From: Rathayibacter sp. SD072
Lineage (GTDB): Bacteria; Actinomycetota; Actinomycetes; Actinomycetales; Microbacteriaceae
Assembly (NCBI RefSeq): GCF_017355185.1
Contig: NZ_JADILJ010000040.1
Span: forward strand, 1 to 35,654
Direction: 5' to 3'
Length of the DNA: 35,654 nt
Below the pieces are notes generated by a model. It was given only the letters and a program-made list of their open reading frames with translations. It had not been told where the DNA came from and did no database searches. The translations under genes were made by a program, and so were the position numbers. Positions within the stretch are counted from its first letter, which is position 1. Each line of letters begins with the position of its first letter. This document shows positions 1 to 11,189 of this stretch, piece after piece.

Positions 1-2366
1 GTCGGCGCCGGGGTGGGCTCCGCCGTCGGCGCGGTGGTCGGCGCGACCGTGGGCTCCGCGGTGGGCGCGACCGTCGGCTCGCCCGTCGGCACCGGCGTCG
101 GCTCGGGCGTGACCGCCGTGCCGAACACCGACTCCGCCGAGCCGAGCGACGCCAGCACGGTCTCGCCGTTCGCGTCGTCGACCGCGTCGTTGTCCGTGAC
201 CACGAAGACCTCGCCCGCGCCCGTGATGCCGAGCCCCTCGAGCTTCTCCTGGGTCCAGCCGTTGCCCGCCTCGAGCGCCGGCAGCACGTCGGCCGCGAGC
301 GTCTTCTCGAGCAGCGGCAGCTCCTCGCCGACCGCGGCGCCCGCGCCCGCGGGAAGCGGCACCGTGTAGACCGCCTTGAGGGCGGCGTCCGGACCGTTGC
401 GCTTGTCGCGCTCGATCACGGCGAGCGTGCCCGCCGGGGTCAGCGTGATCTCGGAGAGGCCGTTCCAGTCGCCCTCGACTCCGGACGGAGCCTCGAGCGG
501 GTAGCCGAAGAAGCTCCAGGTGCCGGCGGCGACGTCGTAGCGGCCCAGGCGCACCACTCCGTCTGCGTCGATCGAGGCCTCGCGCTGCAGCGCGGTCCAG
601 ACGAACTCGCCGTCCGTCCCGGACTCGATGGTCACGCCCTCGAAGCCCTGAGAGCCGAGCGCGTCGGCGACCTCGGCGGGGAGCGCGATGCGCTCGCGCA
701 CCGCGGCGGAGTCGTCGAGGCGCAGCAGGGCGTTCTCGGGTCCGGTCGCGCCCTCGGTCACGGCCCAGAAGCCGCCGTCGGCGCGCGCCGCGATGCCCTC
801 GAGGTCGAGGGCGGCCGGCTCACCCGCCTCGGTGACGGTCGTCGTCGCGTCCAGCACCGCGGGAGTGACGGAGGTGTCGATCGAGTGGATCGTGCTCGGC
901 GCGTAGGCGCTGTCGCTCACCGCGAAGAGGCGGTCGGCGTCGGCCGGGTCGGTGGAGAGTCCCGAGAGGGCGCCCCAGGGCAGCGGTGATCCGTCGACGT
1001 CGGCCGAGACGAGCGTGGGGAACGCCGGAGCGGAGGCGCCCAGCGCGTAGAGCTGCACCGTGGCGCGCAGAGCGGCTTCGGCGTCGTCGGTCTCGCTCGA
1101 GACGACGAGCAGGTCGCGCTCGGGCAGGGCGAGCAGCCCCTCCGGACCGGGCGTCGACGGCAGCGCCTGCACGAGACGCGGCGCGGTCGGGTCCGAGACG
1201 TCGTAGACGGCGACGAAGTTGGCGCGCTCGGCGCCGACGAAGACGTACGGCACGCCGTCGAAGGTCGCCGACAGCAGGCCCTCGGGCTCGGAGCCCTTGG
1301 CGTCGGAGCGCTTGTCGGGGTAGAGGCCGAGGCTCACGGCGAGGTGGTCGAAGGAGTTCCCCGCGTCCCACTGCACCGCTCCGGTGGCCGCGTCGAGGAT
1401 CGACCAGCCGCGCGTGCCGCCCTTCCAGTCGCCCTCGTTCGCGATCGCGACGTGCGCGTCGCCGACCCAGCCGATGGCGTCGGGCTCGCGCGGCACGTCC
1501 GTGATCGATCCCGTGAGCGAGATCGTGTCGTCGTCGAGGGTGTCGATGCCGTCGACCGAGACGGTGCCCGCGGAGTAGGAGGTGAGCACCTCGCGCGAGG
1601 CCAGGTCGACGATCGCGACGGCGTTGTTCTCCTGCAGAGTCACGGCGACGGCCGTGTCGGCGGGGTTGATCGAGACGTACTCGGGCTCGGGGTCCTCGGG
1701 GGTGTCGAGGCCCGTGAGTCCGGTGAGCGAGACGTGCTCAGCGACCCAGGCGGAGGGGTCCCCGGTGAGGTCCATGACGACGAGCTCGCCGGCGGGCGCC
1801 TGCGGCAGGTCGCCCTCCTCGGCGCCCTCGGGGGTGAACTCCTCGTCGCGCTGGTTCTCGATCGCGATGACGGCGGTGTCGCCGGCGGTGGTGACGTCGA
1901 TGGAGTCGGGCTGCCCGCCGAGCTCGATCGTCGCGACGGGCGCGAGGTCGGCGGCGTGCAGCACGCTCACGTGACCGGAGGGGTTCGCGAAGTCGCCGTC
2001 ACTCGTGTCGACGACCGCGAGGACGTACTCGCCGGTCGCGTAGACCGAGGTCGGCTCGCCGCCGACGCCCGTGCCGCCGAGCGGCTCGGGCGACTCGGGG
2101 TCGCTGATGTCCAGGACGTTGATGCGCTGGCCGGCCGAGTCGGTCGAGTAGACGAGGCGGCCGTCGGGCGACGCGCTCGAGATCTCGGCGACGGCGGAGT
2201 CGACGGCCGGGTCGGCGGCGTTCAGGTACGCGGGCACGGTGGCGATGCGGGTGAAGAAGGAGTCGCCGCTCGCCGCGGCCGGCAGGGCGGCTCCGAGCGT
2301 GCAGCTCGCGAGGGTGAGGACGATCGCGGCGCCGGCGGCGCGGCGGGGGGCATGAGGACGGGGCAC
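1..2366 (-). CDS. Secreted beta-propeller / esterase-like phytase-family protein (3' end outside window)
   Basis: An open minus-strand frame runs from a GTG at 2366 to the left edge (about 788 codons, no stop reached). The GTG is preceded by AGGAG at a good distance. The N-terminus has arginines, a hydrophobic stretch and an Ala-rich cleavage region (GAALPAAASGD), a Sec or Tat signal peptide. Residues about 45-440 read as a beta-propeller with repeats such as VYDVSDPTAPRLVQ and GEPTSVYATGEYVLAVVD, typical of 'choice-of-anchor I' proteins. Residues about 442-745 match the esterase-like phytase domain (LSGLSTDPADADRLFAVSDS, LEGIAARADGGFWAVTEG, GFEGVTIES, EKLEGLGITGAGEVFVVTDN). From about residue 755 a Pro/Thr/Glu/Ala linker (TPEPTPVPTGEPTVAPT) runs off the edge, presumably towards a wall or membrane anchor. 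The enzymatic activity of this combination is not established; an extracellular phosphoesterase is inference. Confidence 0.85.
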   Translation of the reverse strand, partial: MPRPHAPRRAAGAAIVLTLASCTLGAALPAAASGDSFFTRIATVPAYLNAADPAVDSAVAEISSASPDGRLVYSTDSAGQRINVLDISDPESPEPLGGTGVGGEPTSVYATGEYVLAVVDTSDGDFANPSGHVSVLHAADLAPVATIELGGQPDSIDVTTAGDTAVIAIENQRDEEFTPEGAEEGDLPQAPAGELVVMDLTGDPSAWVAEHVSLTGLTGLDTPEDPEPEYVSINPADTAVAVTLQENNAVAIVDLASREVLTSYSAGTVSVDGIDTLDDDTISLTGSITDVPREPDAIGWVGDAHVAIANEGDWKGGTRGWSILDAATGAVQWDAGNSFDHLAVSLGLYPDKRSDAKGSEPEGLLSATFDGVPYVFVGAERANFVAVYDVSDPTAPRLVQALPSTPGPEGLLALPERDLLVVSSETDDAEAALRATVQLYALGASAPAFPTLVSADVDGSPLPWGALSGLSTDPADADRLFAVSDSAYAPSTIHSIDTSVTPAVLDATTTVTEAGEPAALDLEGIAARADGGFWAVTEGATGPENALLRLDDSAAVRERIALPAEVADALGSQGFEGVTIESGTDGEFVWTALQREASIDADGVVRLGRYDVAAGTWSFFGYPLEAPSGVEGDWNGLSEITLTPAGTLAVIERDKRNGPDAALKAVYTVPLPAGAGAAVGEELPLLEKTLAADVLPALEAGNGWTQEKLEGLGITGAGEVFVVTDNDAVDDANGETVLASLGSAESVFGTAVTPEPTPVPTGEPTVAPTAEPTVAPTTAPTAEPTPAP

Positions 2367-2379
2367 GGGTCTCCTGAGC

Positions 2380-2411
2380 GGGTTCGAAGGGAACCCGACC
2401 ACGCTGGTCGG
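2380..2411 (-). promoter_or_regulatory. Two adjacent hairpins in the 5' leader of the phytase-like gene
   Basis: GGGTTC/GAACCC (2380-2385 and 2391-2396) and CCGACCA/TGGTCGG (2395-2401 and 2405-2411, 3-nt loop) lie directly upstream of the ribosome site of the 2366 GTG start. They share bases at 2395-2396, so they would compete or stack. A role in mRNA stability or translation control is possible but unproven. Confidence 0.3.
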
Positions 2412-2539
2412 CGCGGGTGAACGCGGGGTCGCTCTCGGGTGTCCGCCGGGGGAACGCGAGGTGTCAGCGGTCCCGGGAGCGGGAGGCCGGGGGCCTCGCT
2501 CCGCCGGCGCCGACCCGTGGCGCTCGGTGCGCCGTTCGT

Positions 2540-2602
2540 AACCGAGGTCAGGAGCGCCCCCGGCGGCGGGTGCGCCGCTCGGAGAGGCTCCTGACCTCGG
2601 TT
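2540..2602. terminator. Perfect 16-bp inverted repeat downstream of the 2632-2994 gene
   Basis: AACCGAGGTCAGGAGC (2540-2555) pairs perfectly with GCTCCTGACCTCGGTT (2587-2602) around a GC-rich 31-nt loop. It begins about 30 nt after the stop of the minus-strand gene ending at 2632 and lies upstream of the phytase-like gene. It has no T-tract, as is common for actinobacterial end-of-gene hairpins, so a terminator or 3' stabiliser is the likeliest role. Confidence 0.5.
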
Positions 2603-2631
2603 CCGTACGGTCCGGCGAGCAGAGTGCGCGC

Positions 2632-2994
2632 TCAGAGAGTGTTCGGGCCGGTCCAGGCTCCCGGTCGGCCCTGGTTGCAGGTGCCGTCGCCGGCCGTCGA
2701 CGAGACCGTCATCGACCACTCGGTCGCCGCTCCGACGCGGGACACGCCGGTGCCGCCGTGGAACGCGATGTCGAACGCCGCGGATCCGCCGTCCCGCAGG
2801 AGCGCCTGCGGGTTGAGGAAGGTCACCGTCGAGGTGCCGATCCCCGTGACGCCCAGGGGCGCCGGGAGACCCGCCGGGGCGGTCAGCGGGGCGACCACCA
2901 GCGAGCCCGTCGGGAACGAGGGCCCGTCGGTCTGCACGATGGTGATCGTGATGGTCGAGGCGCCCGCCGGCCTCCGCGACAGGACGTCCTTCAC
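2632..2994 (-). CDS. Hypothetical protein resembling a secreted domain without its signal peptide
   Basis: A 120-residue frame starting at GTG 2994. An in-frame TGA lies only a few codons upstream, so no longer start exists. The sequence is Thr/Ser/Gly/Val-rich with alternating beta-type pattern (TITITIVQTDGPSFPTGSLV, ATEWSMTVSSTAGDGTCN) and ends PGAWTGPNTL, the look of an extracellular beta-sandwich domain, but there is no hydrophobic leader. A GGAGAAG lies about 15 nt from the start, which is far. The region just upstream (2998-3117) carries a coding-like stretch on the opposite strand, so this may be a 5'-truncated remnant of a secreted protein. I do not recognise the family. Confidence 0.45.
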   Translation of the reverse strand: MKDVLSRRPAGASTITITIVQTDGPSFPTGSLVVAPLTAPAGLPAPLGVTGIGTSTVTFLNPQALLRDGGSAAFDIAFHGGTGVSRVGAATEWSMTVSSTAGDGTCNQGRPGAWTGPNTL

Positions 2995-2997
2995 CGC

Positions 2998-3117
2998 GAC
3001 GCGGACTTCTCCGGATCAGACCGCTTCGTCCTCGAGTTCGACGGGACGATGACCGCTGAGCAGCGCTTCCGACTGCTGCAACGCCTCGAGGGGATGGCGG
3101 CGGGAAGCGACGACTGA
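2998..3117 (+). pseudogene. C-terminal remnant of an unidentified small protein
   Basis: About 39 codons ending in TGA at 3115-3117 read DADFSGSDRFVLEFDGTM, then TAEQRFRLLQRLEGMAAGSDD. This is ordinary-looking, non-repetitive protein sequence with an amphipathic helix. Upstream of about 2998 the same frame becomes Arg-rich shadow of the opposite-strand gene and offers no sensible start codon. It therefore looks like the 3' end of a plus-strand gene whose 5' part was lost at a junction near 2995. A short functional ORF starting internally (ATG 3049) cannot be excluded. Confidence 0.35.
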
Positions 3118-3141
3118 CGCAGACATGGCACGAGGTGCCCG

Positions 3142-3237
3142 CTGATCGAGCAGCCCGCGGAGCGGGCGTAGCGAGATCCCCGTGGCCCAGCAGGGTGGGC
3201 CACGATACGCCGCTGTGCGGCTACTCGACCAGCAGGG
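3142..3237. repeat. Compound palindromic intergenic repeat overlapping the end of the Gfo gene
   Basis: Two inverted copies of a roughly 30-bp palindromic unit flank a central hairpin. The left copy begins CTGATCGAGCAGCC with GCCCGC/GCGGGC inside (3153-3158, 3162-3167). The right copy, read on the minus strand, begins CTGGTCGAGTAGCCGC with GCCGC/GCGGC inside (3209-3213, 3217-3221). The centre is CGTGGCCCA/TGGGCCACG (3181-3189, 3196-3204). It resembles the GATCGAGTAG-type intergenic repeats I know from GC-rich actinobacteria. The right copy supplies the last four codons and the stop of the upstream oxidoreductase gene. Confidence 0.6.
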
Positions 3238-4330
3238 GAGGAGTGAGCCCCGCGGCCGCCGATCCCCACGCCGCCAGAGCCTCCCGCACGCGCTCGTCGC
3301 GCGCCAGCCCCAGCGCCTCTGCGTACGCGCCCTCGAGCACGTCGTCGATCCGCACGCGCTCGCCCGACTCGGAGGAGCGCACCGCCGCCTCCACCATCGC
3401 GAGGCTCCGCACGTTCGCGTGCACCTCGCCCGAGGGTGTGCCCCCGGTGCGCAACGCGGAGACGAACTCGGCGAGCGAGCCGTGGATCTCCTCCGGGACC
3501 GGCACGAGCGCCGCCGTCCGTACCTCGGAGGACTCCCGTGCCTGCACCTCCGGCGCCCCGTCGCCGTCCCAGCGGGCCGTGCCGCCCGCGCCGTTCACAC
3601 GCCAGTTGCCGTTCCACGACGTCTCGAACCCGTCGGCGCACCAGCTGCCCGTGTAGGTGAAGCGCAGCCCGCCGGCGAACTCGAACACCGCGGTCGCCGC
3701 GGCGCCGTCGGCGTACCAGCTCCAGTCCGGGTTGTACTCCTCGCAGTACACCGACACCGGGTCGCGGTCGAGCAGGTACCGCGCGGCGTCGAACGCGTGG
3801 ATCGCCATGTCGACGAGCAGCACGTGCGGCATCTCCTCGCGGAACCCGCCGAAGTGGGGCGCCTTCGCGAAGTCGACGGAGGCGGTTCCGAGCGTTCCGA
3901 GCTCGGCGATCTGCGCGCGGAACGCGGCGATCGCGGCGTAGTACCGGCGCGACTGGCTGGTCATCAGCAGCCGCCCCGAGGCCTCCGCCGTCGCCGCGAG
4001 CACGAGCGCCTCGGCGACCGTCGGCGCGATCGGCTTCTCGCAGAGCACCGGCAGGCCGGCGAACAGCGCCTCGGTGCTCACTGGCAGGTGCGCGCGCGGC
4101 ACGGTCACGTTGACCACGGCCTCGGCGCCCGAGCGCTCGGCGACCTCGGCGACGGAGGTGCCGATCGCGACCGGGGCGACCCCCTCCTCCGCCGCGGCCC
4201 GCTCGGCCAGCGCGGTGTCGAGGTCGACGAGGCCGACCAGCTCGACGTCGGCCGAATCGCGCAGCGCGTGCAGCCAGGCACGCCCCATCGCTCCTGCGCC
4301 GACCTGGACGATGCGCACGGGAGCGCTCAT
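3221..4330 (-). CDS. Gfo/Idh/MocA family oxidoreductase (ThuB-like)
   Basis: A 369-residue NAD(P)-dependent sugar dehydrogenase of the glucose-fructose oxidoreductase/inositol dehydrogenase/MocA family. The N-terminal Rossmann motif GAGAMG is at residues 11-16 and the family EKP motif at 97-99 ([10 protein letters not shown]). A C-terminal alpha/beta domain follows, with the substrate-side helix [19 protein letters not shown]. The ATG at 4330 overlaps the stop of the upstream ThuA gene by 4 bp (ATGA), so the two are co-translated. In rhizobia, ThuA works with a Gfo/Idh partner (ThuB) on trehalose or related disaccharides via 3-keto sugars; this pair fits that logic, but the substrate here is unknown. 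The final residues LLVE come from an intergenic repeat. Confidence 0.88.
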
Positions 4331-5106
4331 CGGACGAGCGCTCCCTGGTAGTCGTGCCCGGTGTAGAAGTTCTCGGTCTCGTAGCGCTGCAGTACCGGCA
4401 GGGTGCGCTCGGGGCGGACGGTGCGCGCCCACTCCACTCCGTTCGCGATCACGCGGCGCACATCGGCGTGGTGGTACACGGGGTAGTCCTGGTCGCCGGG
4501 CGAGAAGAAGAAGATCTTGCCGTGCCCCCGCTTCCAGGTCATGCCCGAGCGGAACACCTCGCCGCCCGAGAACGTCGAGAGGAACACCAGCTCGTCGGGT
4601 GCCGGCACGTCGAAGAACTCCCCGTACATCTCCTGCTGCGGGATCACGAACGGGTGGGGCACGCCCTGGGCGATCGGATGCGTCGGGTCGACGGTCCAGA
4701 CCAGCTCGCGGTCCTGCTCCGATCGCCAGCGCAGTGTGCAGGTCGTGCCCATGAGCTTCCCGAAGATCCTCGACCAGTGGCCGGAGTGGAGCACCAGCAG
4801 TCCCATGCCCGACAGCACGTGGCGGTGCACGCGCTCGACGACCTCGTCGGCGACCTCGCCGTGCGCGGCGTGCCCCCACCAGACGAGCACATCGGTGGCG
4901 GCGAGGACGTCCTCGGTCAGGCCGTGCTCCGGCTCGTCGAGCGTCGTGGTCGACACCTGCGCGCGCTCGCCGAGGTTCTCGGAGATGCCCGCGGCGATCG
5001 TCGTGTGCATGCCGTCCGGGTAGATCGCGCGCACCTCCTCCTCGATCTGCTCGTGGCGGTTCTCGCCCCAGACGAGGACGCGGACGGGAGAGGAGGGAGT
5101 GGTCAC
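4327..5106 (-). CDS. ThuA domain-containing protein (trehalose-utilisation family)
   Basis: A 259-residue ThuA-fold protein (glutamine-amidotransferase-like fold). Recognisable parts are [13 protein letters not shown] near the start, [28 protein letters not shown] and [18 protein letters not shown] near the end. I chose GTG 5106 because AAGGA precedes it at a normal distance; a GTG at 5121 would add five codons and a longer frame reaches 5205 without a ribosome site. It is the first gene of a two-gene unit with the Gfo/Idh/MocA enzyme and is divergent from a LacI regulator, which probably controls it. A role in processing a keto-sugar or disaccharide intermediate is inferred from the family; no transporter lies next to it. 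Confidence 0.85.
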
Positions 5107-6419: not shown

Positions 6420-7217
6420 TCACGGCACGATCGCGTCGATGTACCCGCCGTCGACCCGCACCGCCGCGCCCGTGGTCGCCGAGGCGAGCGGCGACGCGAG
6501 GTAGACGACCGTGTTGGCGATCTCCTCCGGCTCGATCAGCCGCTGCAGCAGCGAGTTCGGCCGGTGCAGCCGCATGAACTCGCGCTGCGCCTCGTCCCAG
6601 GGGAGCGACGCGTCGACCAGCTCGTGCACGAAGTCCTCGACCCCGCCCGTGTGCGTCGGGCCCGCGAGCACGCTGTTCACCGTGACTCCGCTGCCCGCCG
6701 CCGCCTTCGCGAAGCCCCGCGAGACTCCGAGCAGCGCCGTCTTCGACACCCCGTAGTGGATCATCTCGGCCGGCGTCGCGACGGCGGAGTCGCTGCCGAT
6801 GTACTGCACGCGCCCCCAGCCCCGCTCGATCATGCCGGGCAGGTACGCGCGGGTCAGGCGCACCCCGGTCAGCACGTTGACCTCGAAGTAGCGCCGCCAC
6901 TCGTCGTCGCTGATCGTGAGCGGATCCGCGCTGCCGAAGATCCCGAGGTTGTTGACGAGGACGTCGACGGTCGGAACGGCCTCGAGCAGCGCCGCGCTGC
7001 CGTCGTCGGTGGCGAGGTCGGCGGCGACTCCGCGGACGGTCGCCTCCGGAACCTGCTGCAGCACCTCCGCGACCGCCGTGTCGATCGAGCCCTGTGAGCG
7101 GGCGTTGACGACCACGTCCGCGCCGGCCCGTGCGAGCCCGACGGCGATCGCCAGCCCGATGCCCTGCCCGGATCCGGTGACCAGTGCCGTCCTGCCGATG
7201 AGATCGATCGCGATCAT
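6420..7217 (-). CDS. SDR family NAD(P)-dependent oxidoreductase
   Basis: A 265-residue classical short-chain dehydrogenase. The cofactor motif TGSGQGIG is at residues 14-21, NNLG at 89-92 (usually NNAG), and the catalytic triad Ser142, Tyr155, Lys159 sits in YIGSDSAVATPAEMIHYGVSK. The usual C-terminal signature reads GAAVRVDGGYID. Length is normal. ATG 7217 is the natural start. The substrate cannot be read from sequence. About 1.5 kb away (8725-8790) lies a decayed copy of this gene's first 20 codons and upstream region, and the sequence upstream of this start still encodes a cupin-like N-terminus (see 8800-9540). Confidence 0.92.
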   Translation of the reverse strand: MIAIDLIGRTALVTGSGQGIGLAIAVGLARAGADVVVNARSQGSIDTAVAEVLQQVPEATVRGVAADLATDDGSAALLEAVPTVDVLVNNLGIFGSADPLTISDDEWRRYFEVNVLTGVRLTRAYLPGMIERGWGRVQYIGSDSAVATPAEMIHYGVSKTALLGVSRGFAKAAAGSGVTVNSVLAGPTHTGGVEDFVHELVDASLPWDEAQREFMRLHRPNSLLQRLIEPEEIANTVVYLASPLASATTGAAVRVDGGYIDAIVP

Positions 7218-7900
7218 GCTGCTCCGTCCTGCGGCGCGCGCGGTGCGGGCCGTGCTCTCGATGACAGTAGTAGCGACGGGGTGCCCGCAGATGTTGCTGC
7301 AGGGGGTCTTCTTGAGGTGCTTGCCGCGAGGAGTGCCCGGCGAAGACGCCTTGAACCGGGTCTGAAGTCGACAGACCGATCGAAGCCGATGCAGCCCTCT
7401 CCCTTCTGTTCCCCGCGCAGAGCCGCTGAGGCACTGCGATGTGACGAGAAGATTCGGCGTGACCGATCGGCCCGAGGCGAATCAAGCCGGCATGGCGCCG
7501 CACAGGTGACCCGTTCGATCTGGTGGTGAGCTGCAGTCAGCTCTTATTCGGAGCGGGAGTGCCGTGTGTTGCGACAGTGGATGTGGTGCACATGCGCTTG
7601 GAAACGCACGAACCAAGCCACCACAGTAGTCGACGACGGACTACTTCGCCTAGCCGCCGAATGACGCATCTCAATTCACGGCAGACGATGCCAGAATCTC
7701 GCGATTTCTTCCCCTTGAGGTGAAGAAATGCAGTGGCGAGAAACTGCTTGCAGTGACAATTCTTGTCCGACCTGCGCCACTGGCGTCTCTCTTCACGCCA
7801 CATCCTTCTGCCTGAGACCTCTCTCATATGAGAATTCGTCATGTTTAGTTAGCGTTCCTCGCATCAGCACCAACACATCGCTGAGGGATTGGGGAATCGC
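7218..7900. other. Intergenic region leading into a low-GC insert; no convincing gene
   Basis: Up to about 7260 the sequence matches the 8777-8830 region at a moderate level. Beyond it GC content falls clearly, with long stretches near 50% against more than 70% in flanking genes. I see no credible coding frame. Notable structures are GAGCTG/CAGCTC followed by TTATT (7528-7543, terminator-like); ATTTCTTC/GAAGAAAT (7704-7711, 7722-7729); CAGTGGCG/CGCCACTG (7731-7738, 7775-7782); and a perfect 12-bp palindrome TCTCATATGAGA (7822-7833) about 70 bp before the secreted-protein gene. Confidence 0.6.
7822..7833. promoter_or_regulatory. Perfect 12-bp palindrome upstream of the secreted-protein gene
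   Basis: TCTCATATGAGA is a perfect palindrome in the AT-rich segment ahead of the ATG at 7901. It could be an operator for the two-gene insert, but no regulator lies within the insert. Confidence 0.3.
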
Positions 7901-8320
7901 ATGTTCATGAGTAAGAAGCCCTCGAGAGAGAGCCGCTTCACGAAGGTGGCCGCGGCTACGGCAGTGATCTTCGGGGTGCTCGGCGCAGGGGCGGTCATCG
8001 CCACCTCTGCCCAGGCTTCCGAATGCAGCTTCGGGTGGTGTGGCATCGTCCACAGCGCAAAGGACTCGACACGTACCGTGTTCGTCGGCTCTGCATGGAG
8101 CGGCTCAGCGCCGTCCGGCAAGATCGCCGCTCTGTCGCCCGGCCAGTCGTCGAAGTCGTTCATGGTGGACGCCGACGCCTACAAGCTCATGCCAGGTGCC
8201 TGCGCCTGGTGGTACACCGAGGCCGGAACCAAGCAGGCACCCGCTCGCGTGCGCGGCGATGGCAGGTGGCACCAGATTCACAACAGCTTCAACTACACGA
8301 TGCACACCTATGCCTGCTGA
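7901..8320 (+). CDS. Small secreted four-cysteine protein of unknown family
   Basis: A 139-residue protein. GGGGAA lies 5 nt before ATG 7901 (a second ATG at 7907 and a TTG at 7889 are in frame). Residues 1-39 form a Sec signal peptide: KKPSRESRFTK, a hydrophobic core AATAVIFGVLGAGAVIA, and cleavage site TSAQA before SECSF. The mature part is about 100 residues with four cysteines (42, 47, 101 and 139); the last is the C-terminal residue. It is rich in Trp, Ser and Gly (CAWWYTEAG, RWHQIHNSFNY). The cysteine pattern suggests two disulfides in a compact extracellular protein. It is followed after 56 bp by a small membrane protein. A bacteriocin or secreted-toxin role is only a hypothesis; an inhibitor or adhesin-like domain is equally possible. 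Its GC content is lower than the neighbours'. Confidence 0.8.
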   Translation: MFMSKKPSRESRFTKVAAATAVIFGVLGAGAVIATSAQASECSFGWCGIVHSAKDSTRTVFVGSAWSGSAPSGKIAALSPGQSSKSFMVDADAYKLMPGACAWWYTEAGTKQAPARVRGDGRWHQIHNSFNYTMHTYAC

Positions 8321-8376
8321 GGTGCTACCGTCCACGTCACTGCCGACTGCCGCCCCTTGAGAAAGAGAGTCAGCTG

Positions 8377-8601
8377 ATGAAGAAGATCGCCGTCCTGTTG
8401 CCGTTGGTGCTGACTTTTTCGCTGTCATTGATGGCCGCATACGCATTGCCAGAGGTGGTGTGGGCTCTAGCTAATCCCACATCGGCAGATACAGACCCGG
8501 CATTCTTCTTCGCCGGATTCATTGGACTCTTCATCGCGTTCCTCGCTCTGCACGTCTGGGGGGTCGTATGGCTGCTTCGCGGGCAGAGTGCTGAAGACTA
8601 G
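8377..8601 (+). CDS. Small two-helix membrane protein (candidate immunity or accessory protein)
   Basis: A 74-residue protein with GAAAGAGAG about 8 nt before ATG 8377. Two hydrophobic segments are visible: about residues 4-27 (IAVLLPLVLTFSLSLMAAYA) and about 43-66 (FFFAGFIGLFIAFLALHVWG), joined by a short polar loop (NPTSADTDP). The C-terminus LLRGQSAED is charged. It follows the secreted four-cysteine protein in the same orientation and the same low-GC block, so co-transcription is likely. Small membrane proteins beside secreted peptides are often immunity or export factors; that role here is inference. Confidence 0.7.
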   Translation: MKKIAVLLPLVLTFSLSLMAAYALPEVVWALANPTSADTDPAFFFAGFIGLFIAFLALHVWGVVWLLRGQSAED

Positions 8602-8660
8602 CTTGAGCTGGTCGGAGAGGGCCGGCGCCCGCGGGGGCCGGCCCTCTCCGCATTTCGGCG
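8602..8660. terminator. GC-rich hairpin after the membrane-protein gene
   Basis: About 20 nt after the stop, GGAGAGGGCCGGC and GCCGGCCCTCTCC (about 8614-8651) form an almost perfect hairpin of 13 bp around a short GC-rich loop, a strong end-of-operon structure. It marks the right edge of the two-gene insert. Confidence 0.65.
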
Positions 8661-8724
8661 ACGCTCTCGAAAGGCGCTGCGCTGCGCTGTTGCTTGAGTG
8701 CAATTCAGATTTCAGGCAACCCGC

Positions 8725-8790
8725 CGATTCGCTGCCCGGATCCGGTGACCACTGTCGTACTGCTCGTGCGAGCATCGCTGCTCCGTTCTG
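8725..8790 (-). pseudogene. Decayed 5' end of an SDR gene
   Basis: On the minus strand this region keeps the start and cofactor-motif end of an SDR gene. The 20-mer CTGCCCGGATCCGGTGACCA (8732-8751) is identical to 7164-7183 of the intact SDR, and GCTGCTCCGT (8777-8786) matches 7218-7227 just upstream of its start. Translation across the small deletion gives VVTGSGQRIGG, the SDR glycine motif, but it is out of frame with the ATG. Only about 20 codons remain. Confidence 0.65.
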
Positions 8791-8799
8791 CCACGCGCC

Positions 8800-9540
8800 G
8801 TGCGCGCCGTGCCTCCGATCGTGTCGGTTGCGTCGCGAGAGCGGACCCCGGACGAGTCTCTGGAAAGCATCGCGGACCCGGCACCGCTCCTGCGCGCAGA
8901 ACTCGTCGGCACTTGGGACGCGGGCGTTCAGTTCACCTACGCGTTCTGGATCCCGCTGCTGTTCTTCGACGCACCTCACTCGCACAGCGCTGCCGCTCAT
9001 CTCTTCGTCGCGCGCGGAGAGCTCCTGCTGGGTTACGGCGAGACGTTCGACCGCTCGTGTCTCGAGCGGTATCCCGCCGGTTCCTTCCTCTGGGTTCCAG
9101 CCGGCGCGGCGCACTTCGACGGGGCCGACACCGAGACGGTGCTCATCGGCACGGCGACCGGCCGTGAAGCGCCGACTACAGGTGAGGCGTCGGCCACGAG
9201 GGGCTGGTTCTCCGCAGCGGTCGGATCCGGTTCCTCGGGGTCGGAGAGCCCCCCCCGATCCTGGAAGGGGGCGGCGGAGCGGTGTCGCGCCGATGAAGGG
9301 GCGCCTCGTCGCGGCGCCGCCAGTGCAGCACCTTGCGCCCTCCCGCGCCCCGCGCGTACCGTGCTGGAGTACCTCGTCGCGAGCCGCGACGTCGGTGCGG
9401 CCACCTCACCGGCCGACCGGACGGCTCGCGGACACGGGGGCTCCCCGCACGGAAGACGGTCCTTTGCGCATCAGCACCGGTACTGCGTCCACGACGCAGA
9501 CGCTGACCTCGCACTGACGACCCCCGTGCCCGCCCGCTGA
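8800..9540 (+). CDS. Cupin-domain protein, probably with a decayed 3' end
   Basis: From a GTG at 8800 (or 8809) the first 120 or so residues read as a single cupin: TYAFWIPLLFFDAPHSHSAA (metal-type His residues), HLFVARGELLLGYGE, and the second motif YPAGSFLWVPAGAAHFDGAD, ending TETVLIGTATG near 9163. After that the frame stays open to 9540, but the sequence turns into Pro/Arg/Ala-rich shadow, so the natural stop seems lost; a TGA in another frame lies exactly at 9161-9163-plus (ggccgTGA), which a one-base indel would restore. The gene starts immediately beside the SDR relic, back to back. A metal-binding small-molecule enzyme or sensor is the family expectation; the function here is unknown and it may be inactive. 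Confidence 0.55.
   Translation: MRAVPPIVSVASRERTPDESLESIADPAPLLRAELVGTWDAGVQFTYAFWIPLLFFDAPHSHSAAAHLFVARGELLLGYGETFDRSCLERYPAGSFLWVPAGAAHFDGADTETVLIGTATGREAPTTGEASATRGWFSAAVGSGSSGSESPPRSWKGAAERCRADEGAPRRGAASAAPCALPRPARTVLEYLVASRDVGAATSPADRTARGHGGSPHGRRSFAHQHRYCVHDADADLALTTPVPAR
9464..9517 (+). CDS. 17-codon leader ORF upstream of the ABC-F gene
   Basis: TTG 9464 is preceded by GGAAGA at 8-nt spacing and encodes MRISTGTASTTQTLTSH, then TGA at 9515-9517. An internal hairpin CTGCGTC/GACGCAG with a 3-nt loop lies at 9483-9499. A second hairpin (9547-9567) lies between this ORF and the ABC-F start at 9609. Resistance-type ABC-F genes are often controlled by ribosome stalling or attenuation in such leaders, which makes this a plausible regulatory peptide. 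The evidence is positional only; codon use cannot settle so short an ORF. Confidence 0.4.
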   Translation: MRISTGTASTTQTLTSH

Positions 9541-9546
9541 GGGCGA

Positions 9547-9567
9547 GGCTCCCGCATGCCGGGAGCC
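9547..9567 (+). promoter_or_regulatory. Leader hairpin before the ABC-F start (candidate attenuator)
   Basis: GGCTCCCG (9547-9554) and CGGGAGCC (9560-9567) form a perfect 8-bp stem with a 5-nt loop, 30 nt after the leader ORF stop and 42 nt before the ABC-F start. No T-tract follows, so Rho-dependent or translational control would be needed if it is regulatory. Confidence 0.4.
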
Positions 9568-9608
9568 CGGTGGTCGTCGCGCGGCGACACACCATCACCG
9601 GGAGCACC

Positions 9609-11189
9609 GTGCCCTCCATCACCCCACCCTCCGTCGTCCTCACCGACTGCTCGTTCGCCTGGCCCGACGGCGACGTCGTCCTCGACCGGGTCACCACCGC
9701 GTTCGGCCGCGGCCGCACCGGGCTCGTCGGGGCCAACGGCGCCGGCAAGTCCACGCTCGTCCGGCTCGTCACCGGCGACCTCACTCCGACGCACGGCACC
9801 GTCTCGACGACGGGGCCGGTCGACCTGCTGCCGCAGCGGCTCCGGCGCGGGCCCGACGACACCGTCGCGGATCTGCTCGGGATCCGCGGGAAGCTCGACG
9901 CCCTGCACGCGATCCTCGGGGGCGACGCCGATCCGCGGCACTTCGATGTGCTCGACGACGACTGGGACCTCGACGCCCGGGCGGCCGCGGCGCTCGGGGA
10001 GGCAGGGCTTCCGGAAGATCTGCGTCGGCCCGTCGCGACACTCTCGGGTGGGCAGGCGGTCCTCGCCGCGGTGACCGGCGTGCGTCTGCGCGAAAAGCCG
10101 ATCGCCGTGCTCGACGAGCCCACCAACGATCTCGACCGGCGGTCGCGCGGCCTGCTGCTCGACCTGGTCGACCGGTGGCGCGGCACGCTGATCGTGGTCA
10201 GCCACGACCGTGAGCTGCTCGAGCACGTCGACGAGATCGCCGAGCTGCGGGGCGGCGCGCTGCGCACCTCCGGAGGCACCTTCTCGGACTTCGAGGAGCG
10301 GCTCGCCCTCGAGCGTGCCGCGGCCGAGCGCGACGTGCGCGACGCCGATCAGCTGCTGCGCGCCGAGAAGCGGCAGCGCATCGAGGCCGAGACGACGATC
10401 GCGCGGCGAGCGAAGGTGGGCGCCCGATCGGCGGAGTCGATGCCGAAGATCCTCGCGAACGCCCGGAAGAACCGGGCCGAGGGGACCGCCGGGCGCCTCC
10501 GCTCCGGTCACGGCGAGGCGGAGGCGCGCGCCCGCGAGCAGGTCGACGCCGCGTCGCGGGCGGTGCGGGACGACGACGCGGTCCGCATCGAGCTGCCGGA
10601 TCCGGGGGTGCCCGCGGGGCGGCGGCTCGCCGAGATCACAGTGCGCGGCCGCGCCACGGTGCTGCAGGGGTCCGAGCGGATCGCCGTGGTCGGCGCGAAC
10701 GGCACGGGCAAGACCACGCTGCTCGAGCAGCTCGTGCGGGCGGCGGCGCGTCCGCATCCGATCGCCGACACGCACGCCACCGCGCTCACCGACCGGATCG
10801 GCTGGCTGCCGCAGCGTCGGGAGGGGCTGCTCGACGACGACCGCACGGTGCTCGAGCACGTGTCGCGAGCGGCTCCCGCGGTGCCGACCGGTGAGCTGCG
10901 CAACTCGCTGGCCCGGCTGCTGCTCCGCGGCGCGATCGTCGACCGGACGGCGGCGACCCTGTCGGGAGGGGAGCGTTTCCGCGCCGCACTCGCCGGACTC
11001 GTGCTCGCGCAGCCCGCTCCGCAGCTCCTCGTGCTCGACGAGCCGACCAACGATCTCGATCTGGCGACGACCGACCATCTCGTGGAGGTGCTCGCGGCCT
11101 GGCGGGGCGGGCTGGTCGTGGTGAGCCACGACGAGGCGTTCCTGGAGCGGCTGGGGCTCGACGGGCGGGTGGTGCTGGACGCGGACTGA
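9609..11189 (+). CDS. ABC-F family ATP-binding protein (ribosome-associated or antibiotic-resistance type)
   Basis: A 526-residue protein with two ABC domains in one chain and no membrane segment. Domain 1 has Walker A GANGAGKST at residues 41-49, signature LSGGQ near 145-149 and Walker B VLDEPTNDLD near 167-176. Domain 2 has Walker A GANGTGKTT at 362-370, signature LSGGE and a second VLDEPTNDLD. The arginine- and alanine-rich helical linker between them (about 225-325) is the ABC-F hallmark. GTG 9609 is chosen because GGGAG lies 4 nt upstream; a longer frame from 9570 has no ribosome site. ABC-F proteins act on ribosomes, either in translation or in displacing antibiotics. The leader ORF and hairpins favour an inducible resistance role, which is inference. 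Confidence 0.88.
   Translation: MPSITPPSVVLTDCSFAWPDGDVVLDRVTTAFGRGRTGLVGANGAGKSTLVRLVTGDLTPTHGTVSTTGPVDLLPQRLRRGPDDTVADLLGIRGKLDALHAILGGDADPRHFDVLDDDWDLDARAAAALGEAGLPEDLRRPVATLSGGQAVLAAVTGVRLREKPIAVLDEPTNDLDRRSRGLLLDLVDRWRGTLIVVSHDRELLEHVDEIAELRGGALRTSGGTFSDFEERLALERAAAERDVRDADQLLRAEKRQRIEAETTIARRAKVGARSAESMPKILANARKNRAEGTAGRLRSGHGEAEARAREQVDAASRAVRDDDAVRIELPDPGVPAGRRLAEITVRGRATVLQGSERIAVVGANGTGKTTLLEQLVRAAARPHPIADTHATALTDRIGWLPQRREGLLDDDRTVLEHVSRAAPAVPTGELRNSLARLLLRGAIVDRTAATLSGGERFRAALAGLVLAQPAPQLLVLDEPTNDLDLATTDHLVEVLAAWRGGLVVVSHDEAFLERLGLDGRVVLDAD

Follow-up and report, generated by a model that had tools for sequence, protein, structure and literature searches.

A lineage-specific foreign insertion accompanied by a decayed partial duplication of an adjacent gene start in Rathayibacter sp. 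SD072

Gene-restoring genomic islands carry integrases and leave an intact gene on one side of the imported DNA and a displaced fragment of that gene on the other. The locus described here lies in a 35,654-nucleotide stretch of Rathayibacter sp. SD072 (Microbacteriaceae; contig NZ_JADILJ010000040.1, hereafter the window), which is contig 53 of the 117-contig draft genome G000. It shares this arrangement, with an intact gene for an SDR-family oxidoreductase (SDR) on one side of a 1.46-kb insert and a displaced fragment of the SDR gene on the other, but differs in that no integrase or short identical attachment core was recognised in or around the insert. A further described system is single-crossover (Campbell-type) integration with partial target duplication, as in tests of homology-facilitated illegitimate recombination in Escherichia coli. 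A report on such conjugation tests describes partial lacZ duplications of 109–950 bp, with 14 clones sequenced, and attributes them to circular molecules that recombined by a single crossover after losing part of the homologous fragment (PMC3240628). The likeness is that the cargo lies between the target gene and a partial direct copy of it, the duplication spanning about 110 bp in the window and about 580 bp at a parallel locus in Rathayibacter sp. VKM Ac-2754 (G006), whereas here the event is reconstructed from a decayed natural locus and no donor molecule was seen. Reports also describe duplication by transformation in Streptococcus pneumoniae, at a much larger scale (PMC3784515), and a sporadic distribution of end joining in bacteria (PMC7719229). 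Our literature searches covered the mechanisms and the genus, not the locus, and we make no claim on whether the locus has already been described. We conclude that it is a lineage-specific foreign insertion with a decayed partial duplication of the adjacent gene start, an ordinary kind of event with an unusually clear anatomy.

The SDR gene occupies positions 6420–7217 on the minus strand (PF13561, E 7.5e-41). The DNA search set comprised 15 Rathayibacter genomes, our own included, and a match of about 800 bp or more, at which the SDR was counted as present, was obtained at 82–96% identity in 11 of the 14 congeners, G010, G013 and G014 giving only partial or short matches; the gene is regarded as ancestral at this place in the genus. 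Its first 21 codons together with 46 bp of upstream DNA (7155–7263, minus strand) recur at 8723–8819. Alignment of 7155–7262 with 8723–8819 gave 82 identical positions among 97 ungapped ones (84.5%), with 14 gap columns. An earlier note on the window had reported the intact SDR, a relic of its 5′ end upstream of a cupin frame, sharing identities of 20 bp and 10 bp with the SDR start, and about 1.4 kb of lower-GC DNA between the two ends; all three observations were borne out, and both identical blocks sit within the longer alignment. Local alignment of 7100–7400 with 8650–8950 reached a score of 46, compared with maxima of 36 among 293 random pairs of window segments and of 20 among 2000 dinucleotide shuffles. 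Similarity carries on in the 60 bp past the second identical stretch with another ungapped match, 26 bp long, the score of which was equalled in 0.3% of 5000 shuffles. Because the alignment extends past the short identical blocks, the point on which the earlier note had let this claim depend, we regard the duplication as real.

The two copies can be polarised by comparison with congeners. The relic extends over 8724–8855 (minus strand) and reads as a copy, now decayed, of the SDR 5′ end with its adjoining upstream DNA, left at the original site. G001 keeps DNA upstream of the SDR farther than the intact copy in the window does, and the relic matched it at 74% over 144 columns (E 4e-15). The flank of the relic (8820–8900) aligned with the SDR-upstream DNA of G001 at a score equalled by only one of 5000 shuffles, whereas the score of the corresponding flank of the intact copy (7264–7344) was equalled by 91% of 5000 shuffles (p 0.91). 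Because the flank beyond 8819 matches G001 and the flank beyond 7263, the left break of synteny with both G005 and G001, does not, the relic is the copy at the original junction, and the intact SDR is the one cut off from it by the low-GC segment. Among the 97 compared positions, 15 changes fell on the relic alone and two each on the left copy, G001 and G005; by this count it is the relic that has decayed.

An empty counterpart of the site is present in the genus. Regional alignments of the 11 SDR-bearing congeners gave the distance between the SDR and the conserved leader of an ABC-F gene, taken as the gap between the final match on the SDR side and the earliest in the leader. It is 34 bp in G005, 130 bp in G008, 145 bp in G004 and 154 bp in G006, compared with 2067 bp in the window (between the equivalents of 7263 and 9331). 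G005 is a close relative with an empty site, and its DNA to either side of the break is 93.7% identical to that of the window. In G001, 1031 bp of other DNA separates the SDR from the leader, and in the remaining six of the 11 congeners the leader is not adjacent to the SDR. These spacings show SDR, short spacer and ABC-F leader as the ancestral order in this part of the genus. Since congeners have SDR–leader spacers without such DNA, the extra DNA corresponds to the whole of 7264–9330, the cupin frame included, so that the right break, which the earlier note had expected near 8700, falls at about 9330. By blastn, 7264–9330 was not found beside the SDR in any of the 11 congeners, save for the match of the relic to SDR-upstream DNA in G001 and G005. 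The spacer of G001 (L024, 7616–8646) is a different 1.03-kb segment with a putative membrane-protein gene, the frame of which matched no Pfam family at its cut-off. The SDR–leader spacer looks like a small variable site in this clade.

The first part of the extra DNA, 7264–8723, has a GC content of 60.5% compared with 72.4% for the window, the lowest-GC 1460-bp stretch starting in 1–5000 or after 9500 being at 67.8%, and it gave no blastn match at the locus in the 11 congeners; we read it as a foreign segment. It carries two plus-strand genes. One of them (7901–8320) encodes a 139-aa predicted secreted protein with four cysteines and, by eye, a signal-peptide-like N-terminus, and the other (8377–8601), which begins 56 bp after it, a 74-aa membrane protein, probably with two helices as judged by eye. 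Third-position GC is 82.1% in the former and 68.0% in the latter, compared with 95.5% in the SDR. Protein searches covered 299 genomes of the family and 396 of the order, together with a pattern-based scan of 84,980 genomes, which can miss distant relatives. For the secreted protein, two other genomes among the 396 held weak relatives at E ≤ 1e-4 (G322, E 2.1e-6; G447, E 7.2e-5), and all four cysteines are common to them, suggesting that it belongs to a small unnamed actinobacterial family; eight more family-level matches (E 3e-4 to 9e-4) were treated as chance. At the limits used, searches of Pfam, NCBIfam, PADLOC and PHROGs assigned it to no family, one NCBIfam match lying far below its cut-off; it was not found in plasmids, viral contigs or phages, and gave a mean AlphaFold2 pLDDT of 43. 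The membrane protein likewise matched no Pfam, NCBIfam, PADLOC or PHROGs family and was not found in plasmids or viral contigs by scans of the same pattern-based kind, with the same limit on distant relatives; its single relative among the 299 family genomes, 78% identical, is in G006, and the 84,980-genome scan returned the same single match. Just after the two genes lies a strong GC-rich hairpin (8613–8650, plus strand; a 38-bp inverted repeat; −41.1 kcal/mol, z −4.0), which is terminator-like except for lacking a T run and is not listed by the terminator scan. A consensus promoter scan of 7200–9600 found no site. Homology to a known bacteriocin family, as expected of a bacteriocin and immunity pair, was seen for neither gene in Pfam, NCBIfam, PADLOC or PHROGs. 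From its layout, the two-gene cargo could be a secreted effector with a membrane partner, bacteriocin/immunity-like in arrangement.

The second part of the extra DNA contains the cupin frame, most plausibly a fragment of a cupin gene of foreign origin. The frame open at 8800 gave weak cupin matches below the Pfam cut-offs. A profile built from six relatives matched only its residues 24–121 (143 bits), placing the cupin piece at 8869–9162 (plus strand), and relatives that are 56–67% identical occur in six other genomes among the 396 of the order at E ≤ 1e-6 (G062, G407, G453, G481, G540 and G588). Among the 299 family genomes, four matched at E ≤ 1e-3, our own included, G062 strongly and two others at about 1e-4. 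The window copy is like the small cupin proteins of Micrococcales in its identity over the core, and differs from them in lacking their start region and ending in frame: its first 20 or so residues are the SDR-upstream relic DNA, and the conserved ...GPWST... ending is missing from the frame, which continues through the ABC-F leader. The stretch between the cupin piece and the right break (9163–9330) had no match in G001 or G005. The earlier note had placed the cupin start at 8800, which does not hold, as 8724–8855 is SDR-upstream DNA and homology to cupins starts near 8869. The similarity between VRAVLSMTVVA and VRAVPPIVSVA, by which it had linked the two ends, does exist, but it arises from duplicated SDR-upstream DNA read in one frame and does not mark a cupin start. 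An apparent gene start can thus derive from the relic of a neighbouring gene, which calls for caution in annotation.

The membrane-protein gene of G006 lies in a comparable setting. It is flanked by an intact epimerase gene and by a partial, internally deleted copy of the epimerase 5′ region, so that both copies of the membrane-protein gene, in the window and in G006, stand in the same orientation between an intact gene and a partial copy of the 5′ end of that gene. The epimerase relic consists of 139 bp at 92% identity and 152 columns at 74%, which adjoin each other in the relic and lie 289 bp apart in the intact gene, the repeat spanning about 580 bp. G004 has an empty counterpart of this locus, and in G006 it is again the relic that faces the original neighbour. 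Around the epimerase start codon, 116 bp differ at only two positions between the copies, which suggests a later exchange or conversion between them. The G006 epimerase is 76% identical to that of G004, compared with 90.7% for the other flank, and a foreign replacement of the epimerase was considered; the start region (relic against intact gene 92%, these two copies against G004 85 and 87%) and the second half (relic against intact gene 77%, these two copies against G004 76 and 81%) point different ways. The two membrane-protein loci share only about 250 bp (8352–8601 in the window). Beside the epimerase locus, a low-GC stretch of G006 (L108, 13944–17438) encodes an ABC ATPase (PF00005, E 6.7e-27) and an FtsX-type permease (PF02687, E 4.3e-6), and it also holds a lipoprotein-like frame and another whose match, of the peptidoglycan-binding type, is weak.

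As to the origin of the SD072 locus, we consider it somewhat probable that foreign DNA was gained via short homology to the SDR, in a single-crossover-like event that duplicated about 110 bp and was followed by decay. Foreign DNA carrying, or joined to, a short SDR 5′ stretch would have entered the chromosome via that homology; a single-crossover-like event would have left the cargo between two direct copies of about 110 bp of the target; of these, one would have stayed attached to the working SDR, leaving the other free to decay; and the cupin piece may have come with the same event or with a second one. The cargo is indeed enclosed by a partial direct duplication of the target, as expected of a single crossover. 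Also in favour are the empty site in G005 and the short spacers in three other congeners, a duplication score well above chance, the polarity and decay of the relic, the parallel in G006 and the E. coli precedent. A ComEC-like protein is encoded in the genome and also in 10 of 14 control genomes, and therefore says little about competence. Several points weigh against this origin. Searches with the two proteins of the insert gave no donor in which an SDR 5′ end adjoins the two-gene segment. The 97-position comparison does not settle the branching order of the relic among G000, G001 and G005. A simple single duplication fails to explain why one half of the G006 relic has diverged far more than the other (74% identity, against two mismatches over 116 bp). 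Also in G006, low-GC DNA without a match in G004 lies past the epimerase, so that a larger import including the epimerase is possible there.

The main rival to entry via SDR homology is capture of DNA during end joining, in which a staggered or sister-chromatid double-strand break would be closed by Ku with foreign filler, duplicating the stretch between the break points. Ku is encoded in the genome (PF02735, E 1.7e-50), the insert is a patchwork of unrelated pieces, and no homology in the donor would be required. However, the G006 repeat, of about 580 bp and with a near-identical 116-bp core, does not sit easily with it, a repeat of about 580 bp being long for filler repair. The junctions themselves have decayed. 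We regard this explanation as rather unlikely.

Little credence can be given to an ancestral SDR/cupin divergent pair that was split by an insertion, or by recombination between homologous loci, with each half losing its partner, which was the proposal of the earlier note. The order of relic and cupin would fit it, and the flank of the relic is ancestral. Nevertheless, the pair is not supported, because the cupin belongs to the extra DNA and none stands beside the SDR in the 11 SDR-bearing congeners, as judged by blastn in all of them, by the cupin profile on the SDR spacers of nine, which gave nothing above noise, and by whole-genome protein search of G002 and G003, which found no cupin match anywhere in either genome. 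Cupin relatives are scattered, and no SDR was recognised by eye among the frames listed for the neighbourhoods of two of them (L036 and L071, about 3.3 kb each). Of that proposal, the old insertion stands, in view of the empty site of G005, while the reciprocally decayed halves and the uninterrupted SDR/cupin pair expected in relatives do not. The alternative that relatives always carry the secreted protein between these genes, which the earlier note had set against an insertion, does not apply either, since its gene turned up next to the SDR in no SDR-bearing congener of the 11.

It is also improbable that the secreted and membrane proteins form a mobile cassette whose normal way of moving targets gene 5′ ends and leaves part of the target duplicated, its recombinase being lost or acting in trans. 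The matching placement and orientation of the two known membrane-protein genes would fit such a cassette, and so would the outcome of a search for similar relics elsewhere. A base-rate scan of 800 kb of G001 and G006 (cut-off E 1e-8) returned 48 direct-repeat pairs (19 in G001 and 29 in G006). Twelve of them were inspected singly, the rest being set aside as repeats within one gene, between neighbouring long frames or at places already inspected; the known G006 locus aside, none of the 12 could be recognised as a clear gene-start relic, one pair being undecided. The scan misses old, short cases, returning no pair in the window, where its own repeat goes undetected at this cut-off. Against a cassette, neither the nine frames searched in the insert nor the five next to the G006 copy yielded a recombinase, the copies have only the short segment given above in common, no common ends were seen, G006 showed no trace of the secreted-protein gene, the duplication lengths differ, and only two loci are available. 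A very small recombinase-less cassette that repeatedly settles at Rathayibacter gene starts by duplicating part of the target 5′ end while preserving the gene, each move leaving a working gene and a decaying gene-start relic, would be a very improbable form of this explanation. An insertion sequence or transposon was rejected, Pfam searches of nine insert-region frames, four on the plus strand and five on the minus strand, having found no family, transposase or integrase, and self-comparison no terminal inverted repeats at 7264/8723. PHROGs searches of six frames returned no family. An integrase-driven genomic island was rejected on the same nine frames and on a repeat that is 84.5% identical rather than identical, although it contains the 20-bp identical block.

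Among the inspected pairs, that at 41531/45014 in G006 was rejected as a gene-start relic, as it looks like paralogous genes whose protein-level match continues past the repeat on both sides, and that at 214228/216438 in G001 reads like an intergenic repeat, with no firm assignment. An intergenic repeat of the form GTCGAGTAGCCCCGCAGGGGCGTATCGAGA ... GGATCTCGATACG was observed in several inspected pairs from both congeners (L078–L117, G001 and G006; e.g., G006:C19:89079-89202). G001 also holds an 81-bp perfect direct repeat, 2.4 kb apart (G001:C1:457593-457673 and 459999-460079), possibly an attachment-site pair.

At the right break of synteny, the conserved leader (9331–9569, plus strand) precedes the ABC-F gene (9570–11189), which matched NF000355 below the family cut-off. 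Positions 9331–9540 are 87–99% identical over about 190–210 bp in nine of the 14 congeners, in four of which the leader lies away from the SDR. Within the leader, 9340–9470 folds at −70 kcal/mol (z −2.0), and the leader is possibly an attenuator; it had no Rfam match, nor did the whole window at gathering scores.

The SD072 locus offers a polarised case of gene-sized foreign DNA entering an actinobacterial chromosome without a recognisable recombinase, in which the empty and filled states of the site and the duplicate in decay can all be made out. Should the parallel in Rathayibacter sp. VKM Ac-2754 extend to further genomes, gene gain could be dated by the scars that partial gene-start duplications leave.

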